A stretch of DNA of 64,000 nt from Pseudomonas sp. R84. GTDB taxonomy: Bacteria; Pseudomonadota; Gammaproteobacteria; Pseudomonadales; Pseudomonadaceae. Positions 14,551 through 22,700 of this stretch are shown piece after piece (position 1 is the first letter of the stretch; every line of letters starts with the position of its first letter). A program made the translations under genes and the position numbers. The stretch lies in the NCBI RefSeq assembly GCF_009834515.1, contig NZ_CP019426.1, forward strand, positions 2,717,501 through 2,781,500, given 5' to 3'. Below the pieces are notes generated by a model that saw only the letters and a program-made list of their open reading frames with translations, did not search any database and was not told the DNA's origin.

Positions 14551-15500
14551 CGACCTTTCCCCGGTCGCTGCGGATTGAGGAATTCGCGCATCTGCTCGAC
14601 CATTTCGCTTTGCGTGCTTAGCGGCATCAGCAGCACCCGTAGCTTTTGCGCGAGCAGTTCCCAGCGAGCGATGCGCGCTTCGGCCTGGGCGCGATAGGTC
14701 TGGCGCAGGTCGAAGTTGAGGGTGTCGAGTTCAAGCTGCGCGCCACGTTCAGCGAACCGTAGAAGGCCGGCGGCGGGCAGGGCGTGATCAAGGGGATCGG
14801 ACAGCGGCAACATCAGCAGATCGCAATGGCGCGACAGGAGGCTCAGTTGCTGTTCGGCGCTATCGGACAGCGCGCGTTCATCGCAGATGACGATCACTAG
14901 ACTGCCCGGGCGCAGCACTTCACGGGCGCGGCGCAAGGCCACGCCGAACGCATCGCGATCCGGTTCACGCTCGCTGTGCAGCGACTGATTGACCTTGACC
15001 AGACGATTGAGCAATTGCAGCAGGCTCTGTTTGCTGCGCCGTGGCTTGATTTCGTAGTGCTCGTTGTCGCCGAACACCAGCCCGCCAACGCGGTCGTTAT
15101 GGCCGAGCGCGGCCCAACCGATCAACGCCGCGACTTGCGCCGCCAGTACCGATTTGAACATCAGCCCGGAGCCGAAAAACAGCCGCGTGCTTTGCTCGAC
15201 CATGATGAAAATCGGCCGTTCGCGTTCTTCATGGAACAGCTTGGTGTGCGGCTCTTGCGTGCGCGCCGTCACGCGCCAGTCGATGGTGCGCACGTCGTCG
15301 CCGGCCTGATAGACCCGCACTTGATCGAAATCGACGCCGCGGCCACGGAATTTCGAGTGATGCAGGCCGATCAGCGGGCTGCGCTGACTCGGCGTGGAAA
15401 ACAGCTGCACTTCACGTACGCGGTGACGCATCTCGATCAGCTCGGCGAGGCTGACGCGGATGCCCGGTTCGGACGGCAGGGAGGCGTTCATGGGGGTCAA
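14547..15500 (-). CDS. DUF58 protein of the MoxR/Bat operon
   Basis: 317 residues, soluble. The DUF58 signature is intact: RGVDFDQVRVYQAGDDVRTI followed by DWRVTARTQEPHTKLF. These proteins carry a VWA-like fold and act as partners of MoxR AAA+ ATPases; the exact task is unknown. It overlaps the MoxR gene by 4 bases and DUF4381 by 4 bases. The start ATG at 15500 is supported by this coupling. Confidence 0.88.
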   Translation of the reverse strand: MTPMNASLPSEPGIRVSLAELIEMRHRVREVQLFSTPSQRSPLIGLHHSKFRGRGVDFDQVRVYQAGDDVRTIDWRVTARTQEPHTKLFHEERERPIFIMVEQSTRLFFGSGLMFKSVLAAQVAALIGWAALGHNDRVGGLVFGDNEHYEIKPRRSKQSLLQLLNRLVKVNQSLHSEREPDRDAFGVALRRAREVLRPGSLVIVICDERALSDSAEQQLSLLSRHCDLLMLPLSDPLDHALPAAGLLRFAERGAQLELDTLNFDLRQTYRAQAEARIARWELLAQKLRVLLMPLSTQSEMVEQMREFLNPQRPGKGR

Positions 15501-16456
15501 GCGACGGCTACGACGTCGAGAATCCGCTGCACCACCCGATCCTGATCGATGCCGGCGGCTTCGGCTTCAAACGACAAAATGATGCGGTGACGCAACACAT
15601 CGAACAGCACCGCCTGAATGTCTTCCGGGCTGACGAAGTCGCGACCGGCCAGCCAGGCATGAGCGCGGGCGCAGCGGTCGAGGGCAATCGAACCGCGCGG
15701 GCTGGCGCCGTAAGCGATCCACTCGGCCATTTCCGGGTCGAACTTGGCCGGGTTGCGCGTGGCCATGACCAGTTGCACGAGGTATTCCTCCACGGCGTCG
15801 GCCATGTACAGACCGAGGATTTCCTTGCGCGCGGCGAAGATTGCCTGCTGGCTGACGCGGCGCTCGGGTTTTGTTTCGCCGTTCAACGCTTCGCCACGGG
15901 CCTGCTGGAGGATGCGGCGCTCGACGGCGGCGTCCGGGAAACCGATTTTTACGTGCATCAGGAAACGATCGAGCTGGGCCTCCGGCAGCGGATACGTGCC
16001 TTCCTGCTCGATCGGGTTCTGCGTGGCCATCACCAGAAACAGCGGCGACAGCTCGTAAGTGCTGCGGCCGACACTGACCTGACGCTCGGCCATGGCTTCG
16101 AGCAGCGCCGATTGCACCTTGGCCGGGGCGCGGTTGATTTCGTCCGCCAGCACCAGGTTGTGGAAGATCGGCCCTTGCTGGAACACGAAACTGCCGGTTT
16201 CCGGGCGATAGATCTCGGTGCCGGTGATGTCGGCCGGCAGCAGGTCAGGGGTGAACTGAATGCGATGGAACTGGGCTTCGATGCCCTCGGCGAGTTCTTT
16301 GATCGCTTTGGTTTTGGCCAGACCCGGAGCGCCCTCGACCAGCATGTGGCCGTCGGCGAGCAGGGCGATGAGCAAACGCTCGATGAGTTTTTCCTGGCCG
16401 AGAATCTGCGTTGAAAGAAAGGTTCGCAGCGCCAGCAGCGCTTCACGATGTTCCAT
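15497..16456 (-). CDS. MoxR-family AAA+ ATPase
   Basis: 319 residues from the ATG at 16456 (MEHREALLAL), chosen because AGGAAC lies about eight bases upstream; the frame is open to a GTG at 16486. Walker A is GAPGLAKTK at about 42-50, Walker B is LVLADEINRAP, and the sensor region reads ATQNPIEQEGTYPLPEAQLD. MoxR ATPases act as chaperones that remodel or load metal into partner proteins together with VWA proteins. It is the first gene of the Bat operon and thus probably next to its promoter. Confidence 0.92.
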   Translation of the reverse strand: MEHREALLALRTFLSTQILGQEKLIERLLIALLADGHMLVEGAPGLAKTKAIKELAEGIEAQFHRIQFTPDLLPADITGTEIYRPETGSFVFQQGPIFHNLVLADEINRAPAKVQSALLEAMAERQVSVGRSTYELSPLFLVMATQNPIEQEGTYPLPEAQLDRFLMHVKIGFPDAAVERRILQQARGEALNGETKPERRVSQQAIFAARKEILGLYMADAVEEYLVQLVMATRNPAKFDPEMAEWIAYGASPRGSIALDRCARAHAWLAGRDFVSPEDIQAVLFDVLRHRIILSFEAEAAGIDQDRVVQRILDVVAVA

Positions 16457-16638
16457 CGGTGACTGTTCCTGGAAAGGGGTGGCCACGCGCGTTCGGATAA
16501 CGCCGGGGCTGGGGGCGTTACTTTAATCCATCGCGGGGGGTGGCGACTAACGGCATTTTGCGCAAAGTGCGGGAAATGACTGGGGGAATTGTTGGGTTTT
16601 TGTAGTGCCGGGGGAGGGGCTGTGTTCTTCAGGGTCCC

Positions 16639-16710
16639 TTCGCGAGCAAGCTCGCTCCCACATTGACGGTGTACACGCAGTTCAAATGTGGGAGCGAGCT
16701 TGCTCGCGAA
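16639..16710. repeat. REPIN (CGCGAGCAAGCTCGCTCCCAC type)
   Basis: Inverted arms 16639-16663 and 16686-16710 of the Pseudomonas REP with core GAGCAAGCTCGCTCCCACA, separated by 22 bases. Further copies are at 24733, 26289 (single arm), 38652, and with a variant core at 44584 and 46015. It lies between the MoxR promoter region and the end of the acidic protein gene. Confidence 0.85.
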
Positions 16711-16729
16711 GAGGCCTATTCAGAAACCA

Positions 16730-17083
16730 TCAAACTTCGTTAATGAAGGTGCCAGTCCCGTCGAGGATATTCGTCAAGGTCTCGACAACCTCATCCATAT
16801 CCACCATATCCGGGTTAAAGCTGATCTCCAGTACATCATCCCCATTCAACGCATCAGCATCCGCCGCCGCAATCTCGATCTTCAGCAGCGTCGAGGTCAA
16901 AGTAATTTTTACGCCGTCGAGCGTCGAAGGCTCGCCATCCAGGGTGATCTCCAGCTCATCCTCATCCGGATAGCGGCTCATCAGGAACATGTCGCCCTTG
17001 TCGCTGTGGCAGCAGAGCATGGCCATGTTGTCTTCTTCGTCATCGCACGGGTTGACGATCAGTAGGGCGGTGGTCATTTGCAT
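16730..17083 (-). CDS. Small acidic protein, possibly Imm10-like
   Basis: 117 residues from ATG 17083 (MQMTTALLIV), with AGGAAT eleven bases before; an upstream in-frame ATG at 17110 lacks such a site. It is very acidic (CDDEEDN, YPDEDELE, DADALNGDD). The ending VLEISFN followed by a leucine/valine helix recalls Imm10-type immunity proteins, in which a strand-strand-helix tail closes the fold. I hold this loosely. It lies 71 bases downstream of the colicin-type immunity gene on the same strand, so it may belong to that bacteriocin locus. Confidence 0.55.
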   Translation of the reverse strand: MQMTTALLIVNPCDDEEDNMAMLCCHSDKGDMFLMSRYPDEDELEITLDGEPSTLDGVKITLTSTLLKIEIAAADADALNGDDVLEISFNPDMVDMDEVVETLTNILDGTGTFINEV

Positions 17084-17153
17084 CGGGGTATTCCTAGTTG
17101 GCGCGGACAAAATGTAATTTTGCCACCCTAAAAAAGTTTTTGCTGCTATTGCT

Positions 17154-17720
17154 TCACGCTTTTTCTCTAGAGTTCCACCACCTTTTTAGAATGCGACATG
17201 GGATGTAATACAAGCAGCGTTGCACCATAAATGGTACAACGAGAAATGGAAATAAAGACATGGCCACGTTGTGGGCGGAAAAGAAAAAGACATTAAGTCC
17301 GAACAAATTTCCGTATTTGCCTTTGGTTGTTCCGAGGTCTGTTGATGTCAAATAAAAACACCAGATAAAAAGTGCTGAGAGAGCTACGCCTGCGAAAAGC
17401 AAGGTCAGATATCGTCTAAGTGTCATTTGATCGAACTGCGTTGAGTCGAACTTTTCCGTGAAGGCATAAAAAGTTGAGACAGCAGCGAGCAGGGGGGCAA
17501 AAAGCGCAATATAATTTGCAGTCGCTTTTGAGCTGAAAGGAAATAAGGATGACCAGAAACCAATCAGTCCGAATAGCTGATTGTCCAGAAAGTGATCAAT
17601 CGCCATATCCAAGTTGGACTGAGGGTGGGCGGGAAGGATCAGGTTAATTAGAAAAATTGGCGTCGCGAACAGTCCGAATGCAATCAAAGGTAAAGGTTGA
17701 TCTGGTTTTTTACTCGTCAT
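17154..17720 (-). CDS. Colicin-type immunity protein (four membrane helices)
   Basis: 188 residues from ATG 17720 (MTSKKPDQPL); a GTG at 17729 is an alternative. Four hydrophobic helices are visible: LIAFGLFATPIFLINLIL, YIALFAPLLAAVSTFYAF, YLTLLFAGVALSALFIWCF and VAMSLFPFLVVPFMVQ, with a basic C-terminus. This is the topology of immunity proteins against pore-forming colicins, which sit in the inner membrane and block the channel's voltage-dependent opening. It lies 81 bases downstream of a pore-forming toxin gene on the same strand. Immunity to that toxin is inferred from topology and position. Confidence 0.75.
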   Translation of the reverse strand: MTSKKPDQPLPLIAFGLFATPIFLINLILPAHPQSNLDMAIDHFLDNQLFGLIGFWSSLFPFSSKATANYIALFAPLLAAVSTFYAFTEKFDSTQFDQMTLRRYLTLLFAGVALSALFIWCFYLTSTDLGTTKGKYGNLFGLNVFFFSAHNVAMSLFPFLVVPFMVQRCLYYIPCRILKRWWNSREKA

Positions 17721-17763
17721 GAACTGCACTCTTTGGAATCGAGGTTTATGCCGCTTTGGTAAT

Positions 17764-17792
17764 CGGGGTCTGGCTAGGCGTGCTCGACCCCG
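17764..17792 (-). other. Hairpin between bacteriocin and immunity genes
   Basis: CGGGGTC and GACCCCG form a perfect 7-base stem with a 15-base loop in the gap between the toxin stop and the immunity start. There is no U-run, so it is not a clear terminator. It could set the ratio of toxin to immunity message. Confidence 0.4.
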
Positions 17793-17801
17793 ACAGTGAC
17801 T

Positions 17802-19001
17802 TTAGCGCTGATCTTTCAGTGCAGTTTCTAGGTGGTCAGCGATGAAAGCGTTTATTTTTTCTACATTATTGGCATTTAAAAGAGATGCGATTGTGGCAAT
17901 CGCTACGCCAACGGCAACGATACCTATTGCGCTAGCGGCGAAACCCGGGCTGAACACTGCGAGCAATGTCGCCACCGCCGCGCCAGCACCCACGCCGAGC
18001 GCGATACTCTCAAGCTCCAGAATCAAGGGCTTCCAGTTACCGTCCCGGAAGCCAATGACCGTCTTTTCGATCACCGAATGGGCCTGAACGATTTTTCCGG
18101 TCACGCCAAACCCCTTGGCGAGCTTATTGACACTGTCCATATAGGTCGCTTTATCCAGCGCATTGAGCGCGTCCACAACCGCACGCGTATCCTGCGGACT
18201 GAGCCGCGCATTGGGATTGGTCCGCACTGTCTCGAAAGTCTGCATCGCCTCCGCATAGCTTCTGATCTTCTTCCCCGAAATATCCTTTTGAAGATCCATG
18301 ACCACCTGGTGCAGATTGGCGCCATATTTCTCGAAGATGTATTTGTTCGCGTCGGCGACGAAAGCCACCGCGCGTTTGTAGTCATCAATGCGTTTGGCTT
18401 CTGCTTCGGCCGCAATTCGCTTTTTTTCGTCGTCCTGTCGTTGAGCTTCCGCCAGAGCGGCTAAATGAGCTTGTTCTGCCGCGTGTCTCTGAGCTTCTTC
18501 AGCACGTCGCGCCGCTTCGGCAGCCTGTTGTTGCGCAAGCGCCTCGGCCTGTCGACGGGCTATCTCGGCATACAGTTGTGCTTGTCTTGATTGAAGGCTG
18601 GAAATTTGCGCATTCAACAGCATCGCATCATAAGTCGCTTGCAACTTTGCATGCTGTCGAGAAGTCTGCACGTCTCTCAGCTTTTGTTGCAGTGCCGTAT
18701 TCTTCTGAAAGAGTAACTCGTTGACGGTGTTGGTTGCTCTGTCGAGCCATGCTTGCGGGGTTGCATCAATCAATGGTGGCTGTCGGCTGTCTGCCAGATT
18801 GAGCTCTATTTGCAAGTTGTGCTCAAGGTTTTGTTGTTGCGCGAGATAGTCGCTTTCGATGGCCAGTGTAAATCCATGCATTGGATTACCAAGCGGATAA
18901 TTCTTTAGAATGTCACCGCGAATGGAGCCTGGGTTCAGATTGATTATTTCCCATGTGCCGTCGCCATAAAATACAGTTGTCGGAAGTTCCAGTTGTCTCA
19001 T
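17802..19001 (-). CDS. Compact pore-forming bacteriocin (colicin-like)
   Basis: 399 residues from the ATG at 19001, with GGAG eight bases upstream. Residues 1-95 form an unfamiliar N-terminal domain. Residues 100-210 are an Ala/Gln/Glu/Arg-rich coiled coil. Residues about 205-399 match the colicin pore-forming domain: amphipathic helices with a GKKIRSYAEAMQTFE block, FGVTGKIVQAHSVIEKT, DGNWKPLILELESIALGVGA, then a hydrophobic hairpin at about 334-375. Colicins of this class kill by opening a channel in the inner membrane. There is no signal peptide, no recognised pyocin translocation domain and no lysis gene. It is short compared with pyocin S5 (about 500 residues). Confidence 0.8.
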   Translation of the reverse strand: MRQLELPTTVFYGDGTWEIINLNPGSIRGDILKNYPLGNPMHGFTLAIESDYLAQQQNLEHNLQIELNLADSRQPPLIDATPQAWLDRATNTVNELLFQKNTALQQKLRDVQTSRQHAKLQATYDAMLLNAQISSLQSRQAQLYAEIARRQAEALAQQQAAEAARRAEEAQRHAAEQAHLAALAEAQRQDDEKKRIAAEAEAKRIDDYKRAVAFVADANKYIFEKYGANLHQVVMDLQKDISGKKIRSYAEAMQTFETVRTNPNARLSPQDTRAVVDALNALDKATYMDSVNKLAKGFGVTGKIVQAHSVIEKTVIGFRDGNWKPLILELESIALGVGAGAAVATLLAVFSPGFAASAIGIVAVGVAIATIASLLNANNVEKINAFIADHLETALKDQR

Positions 19002-19756
19002 GTGCTGACTCCTGTTCCTGATAAAGAACCTGTTCCGTGGTTCGGTCTCATATTAATAGCGCTGCTGGCAGAAATATTCTGTAGGGTCCGGTCTTTTAGT
19101 TTTGTGAGACAATTCTTGTCGGGTTGTAAGTTTTTATAAAAGCTTTTTGGTGGTCGTTATTTTTGGTGTTTTTTTGATTTAAAAAGAGCTGCGGTAGAAA
19201 TATCCTGCGATATTTTCTTATTGTTGGAGATGAAATTGCTGACGCGAAGGTAGGATTTTTTACGTGGCGGGACTGATCCGCGTCAACCGCTCGCGCTGAA
19301 CCCGATGCCACGCTCAAGGTCGATAGAACGGCCTTGGGCGTTTTGGTTTCTGGATATGTAGAGGGAAAAGGTCTGCACTTGGGACGGATGTCCCGTAAAT
19401 ACGGGCATGTAGCCCGGCGTTTTCCGCCACGACTGCTAGTGTTTACCGGTGCCAAACCCTTGGTTTACGTGCCAATGACCGAATATGTCGCAGCACCGCA
19501 AGCAGACACATTGTCGCACCCTTTAAGCTGCGCAACGGATGAGCACCCGTAAAGGCATTGTCGGCACCGCTGGCAGTCGCTTTTGCAGATGCCCATTCAA
19601 TGGAAGGTGAATGTGACCTGAGTGTCCCGTCCAGCTTCACCCACCTGTCCCCCTGTTTCCTCTGCCCGAGAATCAGGAACAGGGCGACACAAGCCCCGAA
19701 AGGGGTGTTGCACGCGACGCTTTCCATCAATAACAAGCTTAAGCGGAGTACCACAG
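19002..19756. other. 755-base gene-free stretch between bacteriocin and gdhB
   Basis: 19002-19200 is AT-rich and should hold the minus-strand bacteriocin promoter; it contains the palindrome CAGAAATATTCTG (19069-19081), but I see no clear LexA or PrtN box. Around 19381-19405 two hairpins overlap and exclude each other (GGGAC/GTCCC and CCCGT/ACGGG). The minus-strand frame at 19240-19455 recalls a short sequence repeated in other Pseudomonas genomes, probably not a gene. 19460-19756 is the gdhB leader, with a GAAA-looped hairpin at 19694-19705. Confidence 0.5.
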
Positions 19757-22700
19757 ATGGCGTTCTTCACCGCAGCCAGCAAAGCCGACTTCCAGCACCA
19801 ACTGCAAGCGGCACTGGCGCAGCACATCAGTGAACAGGCACTGCCACAAGTGGCGCTGTTCGCTGAACAATTCTTCGGCATCATTTCCCTGGACGAGCTG
19901 ACTCAACGTCGCCTCTCCGACCTCGCTGGCTGTACTCTTTCCGCGTGGCGCTTGCTTGAGCGCTTCGATCACGCGCAACCGCAAGTGCGCGTCTACAACC
20001 CCGATTACGAGCGTCATGGCTGGCAGTCGACCCACACCGCGGTCGAAGTCCTGCACCATGACCTGCCATTTCTGGTCGACTCGGTTCGTACCGAGCTGAA
20101 CCGTCGCGGCTACAGCATCCACACCCTGCAAACCACCGTGCTCAGCGTGCGTCGTGGCAGCAAGGGCGAGTTGCTGGAAATCCTGCCGAAGGGCAGCACC
20201 GGCGAAGGCGTTCTGCATGAATCGCTGATGTACCTGGAAATCGACCGCTGCGCCAACGCGGCCGAACTGAATGTGCTGAGCAAAGAGCTGGAACAGGTTC
20301 TCGGTGAAGTCCGCGTCGCGGTCGCCGATTTCGAACCGATGAAAGCCAAGGTGCAGGACATCCTCACCCAGCTCGATAACAGCGCGTTCGCCGTTGATGC
20401 CGACGAAAAGAACGAAATCAAAAGCTTCCTGGAATGGCTGGTGGGCAACCACTTCACCTTCCTCGGCTACGAAGAATTCGTGGTCACCGATCAGGCCGAT
20501 GGCGGCCACATCGAGTACGACCAGAACTCCTTCCTTGGCCTGACCAAACTGCTGCGCACCGGCCTGACCTACGAAGACCTGCGCATCGAAGACTACGCCG
20601 TTGCCTACCTGCGCGAACCGACTCTGCTGTCATTCGCCAAGGCTGCGCACCCGAGCCGTGTCCACCGTCCGGCGTACCCGGACTACGTGTCGATCCGTGA
20701 AATCGACGCTGACGGCAAAGTCATCAAGGAACACCGTTTCATGGGCCTGTACACCTCGTCGGTGTATGGCGAGAGCGTGCGGGTCATCCCGTTCATCCGC
20801 CGCAAGGTCGAAGAAATCGAAACGCGCTCCGGCTTCCAGTCCAAGGCTCACCTGGGCAAGGAACTGGCGCAGGTTCTCGAAGTGCTGCCGCGTGATGACC
20901 TGTTCCAGACCCCGGTCGACGAACTGTTCACCACCGTGATGTCGATCGTGCAGATCCAGGAACGCAACAAGATCCGCGTGTTCCTGCGCAAAGACCCGTA
21001 CGGGCGTTTCTGCTACTGCCTGGCCTACGTGCCGCGCGACATCTACTCCACCGAAGTTCGTCAGAAGATCCAGCAAGTGCTGATGGAGCGCCTGAAGGCT
21101 TCCGATTGCGAATTCTGGACGTTCTTCTCCGAATCCGTGCTGGCGCGCGTGCAGTTGATCCTGCGTGTCGACCCGAAAAACCGTCTCGACATCGACCCGG
21201 TGCTGCTGGAAAAAGAAGTCGTTCAAGCCTGCCGCAGCTGGCAGGACGATTACGCCGCACTGACCGTCGAGAGCTTCGGCGAAGCCCACGGCACCAACGT
21301 GCTGGCCGACTTCCCGAAAGGCTTCCCGGCTGGCTACCGCGAGCGTTTTGCCGCGCATTCGGCCGTGGTCGACATGCAGCACCTGCTGAGCCTCAACGAA
21401 AAAAATCCGTTGGTGATGAGCTTCTACCAGCCGCTCGGTCAGGTCTCCGGCCAGCGCGAGCTGCATTGCAAGCTGTATCACGCCGACACGCCGCTGGCGC
21501 TGTCCGACGTGTTGCCGATTCTGGAAAACCTCGGCCTGCGCGTACTGGGTGAATTCCCGTACCGTCTGCGTCACACCAATGGCCGCGAGTTCTGGATTCA
21601 CGACTTCGCGTTCACTGCCGCTGAAGGCCTCGACCTCGACATTCAGCAACTCAACGACACCCTGCAGGACGCGTTCGTCCACATCGTTCGCGGCGACGCC
21701 GAAAACGATGCGTTCAACCGTCTGGTACTGACCGCCGGCCTGCCATGGCGCGACGTGGCGCTGCTGCGTGCTTACGCGCGTTACCTGAAGCAGATTCGTC
21801 TGGGCTTCGACCTCGGTTATATCGCCAGCACCCTGAACAACCACACCGACATCGCTCGCGAGCTGACCCGGTTGTTCAAGACCCGCTTCTATCTGGCGCG
21901 CAAACTCAGCGACGACGATCTGGAAGACAAGCAACTGCGTCTGGAACAAGCGATTCTGACCGCACTGGACGACGTCCAGGTGCTCAACGAAGACCGCATC
22001 CTGCGTCGTTACCTCGACCTGATCAAAGCCACCCTGCGGACCAACTTCTATCAGACTGACGCCAACGGCCAGAACAAGTCGTACTTCAGCTTCAAGTTCA
22101 ACCCGCACGCGATCCCTGAACTGCCGAAGCCAGTGCCGAAGTTCGAAATTTTCGTTTACTCGCCACGCGTTGAAGGCGTGCACCTGCGCTTCGGTAACGT
22201 CGCCCGTGGTGGTCTGCGCTGGTCCGACCGTGAAGAAGACTTCCGTACTGAAGTCCTCGGCCTGGTAAAAGCCCAGCAAGTGAAGAACTCGGTCATCGTG
22301 CCAGTGGGCGCGAAGGGCGGCTTCCTGCCGCGTCGCCTGCCACTGGGCGGCAGCCGTGACGAGATCGCAGCCGAGGGCATCGCCTGCTATCGCATCTTCA
22401 TTTCCGGTCTGTTGGACATCACCGACAACCTGAAAGACGGCGCGCTGGTACCGCCATTGAACGTGGTTCGCCACGACGATGACGACCCGTACCTGGTGGT
22501 CGCAGCGGACAAGGGCACTGCAACCTTCTCCGACATCGCCAACGGCATCGCCATCGATTACGGCTTCTGGCTGGGTGACGCGTTTGCGTCCGGTGGTTCG
22601 GCCGGTTACGACCACAAGAAAATGGGCATTACCGCCAAAGGCGCGTGGGTCGGCGTACAACGCCACTTCCGCGAGCGCGGCATCAATGTTCAGGAAGACA

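Follow-up and report, generated by a model that had tools for sequence, protein, structure and literature searches.

We analysed a two-gene cassette in a 64,000-nt stretch of the Pseudomonas sp. R84 chromosome (NZ_CP019426.1, positions 2,717,501 to 2,781,500; the whole stretch is referred to as the window and positions are counted from its first letter). A preliminary description made from the sequence alone had read the cassette as a compact pore-forming bacteriocin followed by its immunity gene, and the open reading frame (ORF) listing placed both frames, as described, on the minus strand. The genes and the parts of the toxin are as follows.

17802..19001, minus strand: pore-forming bacteriocin gene (399 aa, ATG start; PF01024 match with E = 1.6e-28)
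18861..19001, minus strand: residues 1-47, conserved segment at the N-terminus whose start, LELPTTVFY, resembles a TonB box; no match among solved structures
18516..18860, minus strand: residues 48-162, single kinked three-helix bundle (kTHB) homologous to domain 2 of pyocin S5, which binds common polysaccharide antigen (CPA)
17847..18401, minus strand: residues 201-385, colicin channel domain of ColN/PmnH type (PF01024; tree of 70 pore domains)
17805..17999, minus strand: residues 335-399, C-terminal end including the hydrophobic hairpin; this variable part diversifies together with the immunity protein
17154..17729, minus strand: immunity gene (191 aa from GTG 17729 or 188 aa from ATG 17720; four hydrophobic segments)

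The later immunity start, ATG 17720, is possibly the correct one, as it is used by a 99%-identical database entry (P0045). The G+C content, calculated per 500 bases, was 0.46-0.54 across positions 17000 to 19499 and 0.57-0.64 in the flanks (15000-16499 and 19500-21999). PADLOC called no system.

The toxin is present in a single copy on the 6.6 Mb chromosome, and a copy with 99.7% identity is found in a Pseudomonas chlororaphis EA105 record. A further 29 database proteins, fragments among them, matched with E-values of 1.3e-112 or better, and several of these relatives are already annotated by NCBI as 'colicin-like pore-forming protein'. In a survey of 398 genomes of the genus, a set outside which P. 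aeruginosa possibly lies, 26 genomes gave toxin matches at E 1e-17 or better and carried 27 pore-former genes, some of them broken. A short-pattern scan of genome contigs, which is no census, returned seven loci, and every match from plasmid and phage collections was a partial one to the pore domain that fell short of 80% query coverage. Outside P. aeruginosa, pore formers have been described as very rare, with 24 isolates against over 800 genomes (PMC5358913; articles are cited throughout for the parts of them compared here). The protein is indeed shorter than pyocin S5 (399 aa against S5 residues numbered to 498 in PMC7064778). Compact size was rejected as a mark of novelty, five other pore-former frames of the genus survey measuring 382-423 aa from stop to stop (L018, L020, L022, L024, L026).

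Pore domain, immunity protein and their joint variation

The channel pattern that had been noticed in the C-terminal half was borne out by a profile search, in which PF01024 matched residues 201-385 with 100.3 bits (cut-off 23.4) and was covered from domain position 4 to 184 of 185. The nearest solved relatives by phmmer score were pyocin S5 and then colicins Ia, Ib and N. Although these scores place S5 and ColIa ahead of ColN, a tree of 70 pore domains placed the toxin in a group with the PmnH-like P0040, ColN and ColB, with S5, ColIa and ColIb on the other side of the split (99/95, returned with a long-branch warning), and by this clustering it belongs with the ColN-type Pseudomonas pore formers of PMC5358913. 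P0040, which combines colicin M and pore domains and equals PmnH in length (462 aa), is 53% identical to the toxin, with 44% of the query aligned. Elsewhere, Pseudomonas pore domains have been divided into A-type and E1-type (PMC9018753).

By a simple hydropathy rule the immunity protein has four hydrophobic segments (residues 12-35, 73-91, 106-130 and 147-173), in agreement with the four-helix topology proposed earlier; its AlphaFold model was poor (predicted local distance difference test, pLDDT, 56.9). Colicin_im (PF03857) did not match the window's protein itself, and matched three of the 12 members of its alignment A2 (best E-value 4.6e-08). In PMC5358913, the Pseudomonas ColN-like pore formers with ImmN have a downstream, same-strand immunity gene for about 187 aa and four transmembrane helices (TMHs), unlike the ColIa-type; the gene studied here, coding for 188 or 191 aa with four hydrophobic segments, likewise lies on the toxin's own strand. 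The same arrangement is seen in PmnH/ImnH of P. synxantha BG33R, whose pore domain falls in the same clade: ImnH, encoded downstream on the same strand and having four TMHs, gives full immunity to PmnH (PMC5358913).

Across the 27 pore-former genes of the genus survey, which leaves aside L027-L030 and other weak matches (mostly coil or remnants), all 12 ColN-type loci had an immunity candidate on the toxin's strand, while all 15 ColIa-type genes had a short opposite-strand gene just past the toxin stop; in these counts L012 stands between both classes in the tree, L015, a fragment with a broken immunity frame, is classed by similarity only, and the opposite-strand gene of L013, L018 and L040 came to light only when the search was repeated at a lower threshold (that of L018 having one segment). 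The hydropathy rule gave two to three segments in four of the 12 ColN-type candidates. The same-strand immunity gene had been offered as a sign of novelty; since strand is a class trait in PMC5358913 and the survey agrees, this part of the argument falls away.

Mean pairwise identity was 82% for residues 1-47 (28 pairs), 66% for 48-165 (36 pairs), 85% for 206-334, and just 48% for 335-399 and 45% for the immunity protein (45 pairs each for the last three). Over 10 loci, two of them with broken toxins that were each treated as one piece, and with near-identical groups that favour the result, identity of residues 335-399 correlated with that of the immunity protein (Mantel rho = 0.75, p = 0.0012). 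The correlation was weaker for residues 206-334 (rho = 0.49, p = 0.048; L003, one of the broken toxins, covers only part of this segment) and not significant for 48-165 (rho = 0.29, p = 0.16) or 1-47 (rho = -0.16, p = 0.69). A first hairpin-immunity test on six loci, at a stage when the immunity gene had been missed in three of nine loci, was not significant (rho = 0.30, p = 0.12). Diversification of toxin and immunity in this family is concentrated at the hairpin, while the delivery module stays constant. Taken on its sequence features, the cassette is well supported as a pore-forming bacteriocin with cognate immunity.

Three observations concern immunity genes in relatives. At the toxin's locus in three genomes (L042, L043 and L044, in G019, G105 and G375) and on one database contig (P0032/P0047), the toxin has decayed and the immunity gene is retained, probably as orphan immunity. 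One toxin, in G036 (L002, 265-798 and 853-1425) and also at L048, is followed by a tandem pair of differing immunity genes, the second being 61% identical to that of the window. In P0047, P0048 and P0049 the immunity frame reads through into the downstream 126-aa gene, with predicted fusions of 318-334 aa.

Delivery module and proposed mode of action

Residues 48-162 aligned with residues 203-316 of pyocin S5, which form its kTHB domain 2 (37% identity over 108 columns). In S5 this domain binds CPA, and the disordered N-terminus binds TonB1 (PMC7064778). The preliminary description had found no receptor or pyocin translocation domain in the first 95 residues; given the S5 match, only about residues 1-47 remain unmatched. 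Pyocin S5 (PDB 6THK, P. aeruginosa) shares a disordered N-terminus, the CPA-type bundle, a long helix and a C-terminal colicin pore with the toxin. It differs in having two kTHB domains, the toxin carrying one that corresponds to domain 2 and only 47 residues where S5 has a separate N-terminal transporter-binding bundle, and in its pore, which is of ColIa/E1-type with a three-TMH immunity protein (PMC7064778, PMC5358913), against a ColN-type pore with four-segment, same-strand immunity here. In the pyocin S2 N-terminal domain on FpvAI (PDB 5ODW) the kTHB binds the transporter, whereas the single bundle studied here aligns with the CPA-binding type of S5. Solved-structure matches ranked below 6thk and 5odw were set aside as apparently generic helical similarity. 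The suggestion of a new delivery type therefore survives in part: the bundle is of a known kind, and what is distinctive is the lack of a transporter-binding kTHB and a first segment matching no solved protein.

With residues 1-165 as query, 27 matches were obtained, P0040 not being among them; PmnH has a colicin M domain and enters via the ferrichrome transporter. The reverse query, S5 residues 203-311, matched nine of the 398 genus genomes, every one with the toxin's delivery module. The same module is also joined to ColIa-type pores in G074 and G096. These distributions bear on whether the toxin is a decayed or shortened S5 relative that lost domain 1 and its killing activity and was kept for its immunity gene. 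Broken toxins do lie beside immunity genes in G019, G105, G375 and P0032/P0047; nevertheless, many genomes carry an intact form of 382-399 aa, residues 1-47 retain their 82% identity, and the same short module is found on two pore types. The architecture thus looks maintained, and we consider decay quite unlikely.

A pore former with one kTHB is undescribed in the compared parts of the pyocin kTHB literature (PMC7064778, PMC10422930, PMC10994204, PMC9018753), a body of text in which subscription journals are little covered and which does not establish absence from print. S5-type pyocins have already been listed among P. fluorescens-group bacteriocins (PMC3390384). Likewise, the kTHB module, the fixed locus and the intergenic stem-loop (see below) are undescribed in the compared parts of PMC5358913, which names P. 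chlororaphis among its abbreviations and whose Fig 1 lies outside the comparison.

The first 47 residues begin with LELPTTVFY or LELPGIITY, resembling the starts of other surveyed pore formers (IELPPIIVTP, MEIGPVVITA). A TonB-box-like pattern, composed after the sequences had been seen, occurred in the N-terminal region of 30 of 67 related pore-former rows and in one of 67 internal windows. Model confidence was below 50 over most of residues 1-36, and two short strands (9-11 and 17-19) were predicted at low confidence. In PyoS2 the TonB box is part of a beta-hairpin packed against its kTHB (PMC10994204), and the likeness of the first residues to a TonB box and of the predicted strands to that hairpin is suggestive.

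Two other modes of entry were weighed against these features. The toxin could depend on Tol or use a porin as colicin N does, its N-terminal segment binding porin and Tol instead of a TonB-dependent transporter; the ColN-type pore and a size close to that of ColN (42 kDa, PMC12927319) speak for this. Set against it are a delivery half homologous to that of a TonB-dependent pyocin, a ColN alignment confined to the pore and the TonB-box-like N-terminus, so that we hold it to be unlikely, by a little less than decay. An effector delivered by contact, through a type VI secretion system or contact-dependent inhibition, and equipped by chance with a colicin pore domain would account for the lack of an identified release gene among the neighbours listed as ORFs; a PF02402 lysis-family search of the own genome gave no match, and neither did its control. 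The kTHB import domain and TonB-box-like start, together with Pfam and NCBIfam scans that found no secretion marker domain above cut-off, make this reading very improbable.

We therefore favour, with a probability of about 0.72, a diffusible bacteriocin, lethal to other pseudomonads through depolarisation of their inner membrane, paired with a membrane immunity protein protecting the producer. Whereas the domains, the kTHB homology, the immunity family of the relatives and the hairpin-immunity co-diversification come from the sequences analysed here, the course of action is modelled on pyocins S5 and S2 and on PmnH. The single kTHB would attach to D-rhamnose polysaccharide of the target, the conserved N-terminal segment would find a TonB-dependent transporter and thread through it, and the TonB-box-like start would engage TonB so that the protein is pulled in. 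The hydrophobic hairpin of the pore domain would then insert in the inner membrane; in the producer, the four-helix protein would block this insertion by recognising the hairpin region.

In its killing and immunity halves the cassette belongs to an already described class, and its entry half is that of pyocin S5 in reduced form. Tentatively, and with somewhat less than even confidence, we propose that about 47 conserved residues alone, directly before the polysaccharide-anchoring kTHB, replace both the transporter-binding domain and the TonB box of S5, as one fixed module on two pore classes while hairpin and immunity diversify. Should so short an N-terminus be sufficient to recognise a transporter, the S-type import module of this family would be unusually small and would offer a clean system in which to study the contribution of a transporter-binding kTHB.

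Intergenic stem-loop, upstream region and insertion site

Three further features lie between or beside the two genes.

17762..17794, minus strand: stem-loop in the gap that separates the toxin stop codon from the immunity start, without a T-run after it (z = -3.1)
19103..19129, minus strand: conserved upstream element TTACAACCCGACAAGAATTGTCTCACA, seen when 14 upstream regions were aligned (some genomes probably represented twice)
16730..17110, minus strand: conserved 126-aa gene (in 327 of the 398 genus genomes) that marks one edge of the insertion site and lies outside the toxin system

A stem-loop was predicted in the same gap in all 12 ColN-type loci folded (eight of the window's family and four others; z from -2.2 to -6.8 against shuffles as the sole control). 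The stem-loops differ in sequence and mostly lack a T-run (window, L004-L007, L009-L012, L032, L034, L037); they could set the toxin:immunity ratio or protect the message. The upstream element is unique in the genome when up to three mismatches are allowed and is possibly a promoter or regulator site; a sigma-70 scan of 16500-19800 returned no promoter. A PyocinActivator search gave no match, and neither did its control. Pyocin_S had one match in the genome, away from this locus.

The 126-aa gene follows the immunity gene in all 14 module-bearing ColN-type loci (L001-L007, L031-L037; some probably the same genome twice), and a gdhB-like gene stands on the opposite side in 12 of them, this side lying outside the DNA examined in the other two. 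The ColIa-type module carriers sit elsewhere, with none of these neighbours in the 8 kb of DNA covered for L045 or the 5 kb for L040. Among the best 20 loci of the 126-aa gene, drawn from the 327 genomes with one, 16 were toxin-free: eight had gdhB about 475 bp away, and in the other eight the gap was occupied by an unrelated ORF of 380 aa or more on the opposite strand. Occupation of one gap by toxin cassettes or by unrelated ORFs indicates that it took insertions more than once. The gap-occupying ORF contains cysteine pairs (L049, L050, L053, L057, L059, L060, L062, L063). A match to RF03844, an animal microRNA family, at 16631-16718 scored below the gathering score and is surely due to chance; it falls on a pair of inverted 32-nt repeats (16633-16716), which we take to be REP-like (repetitive extragenic palindromic).
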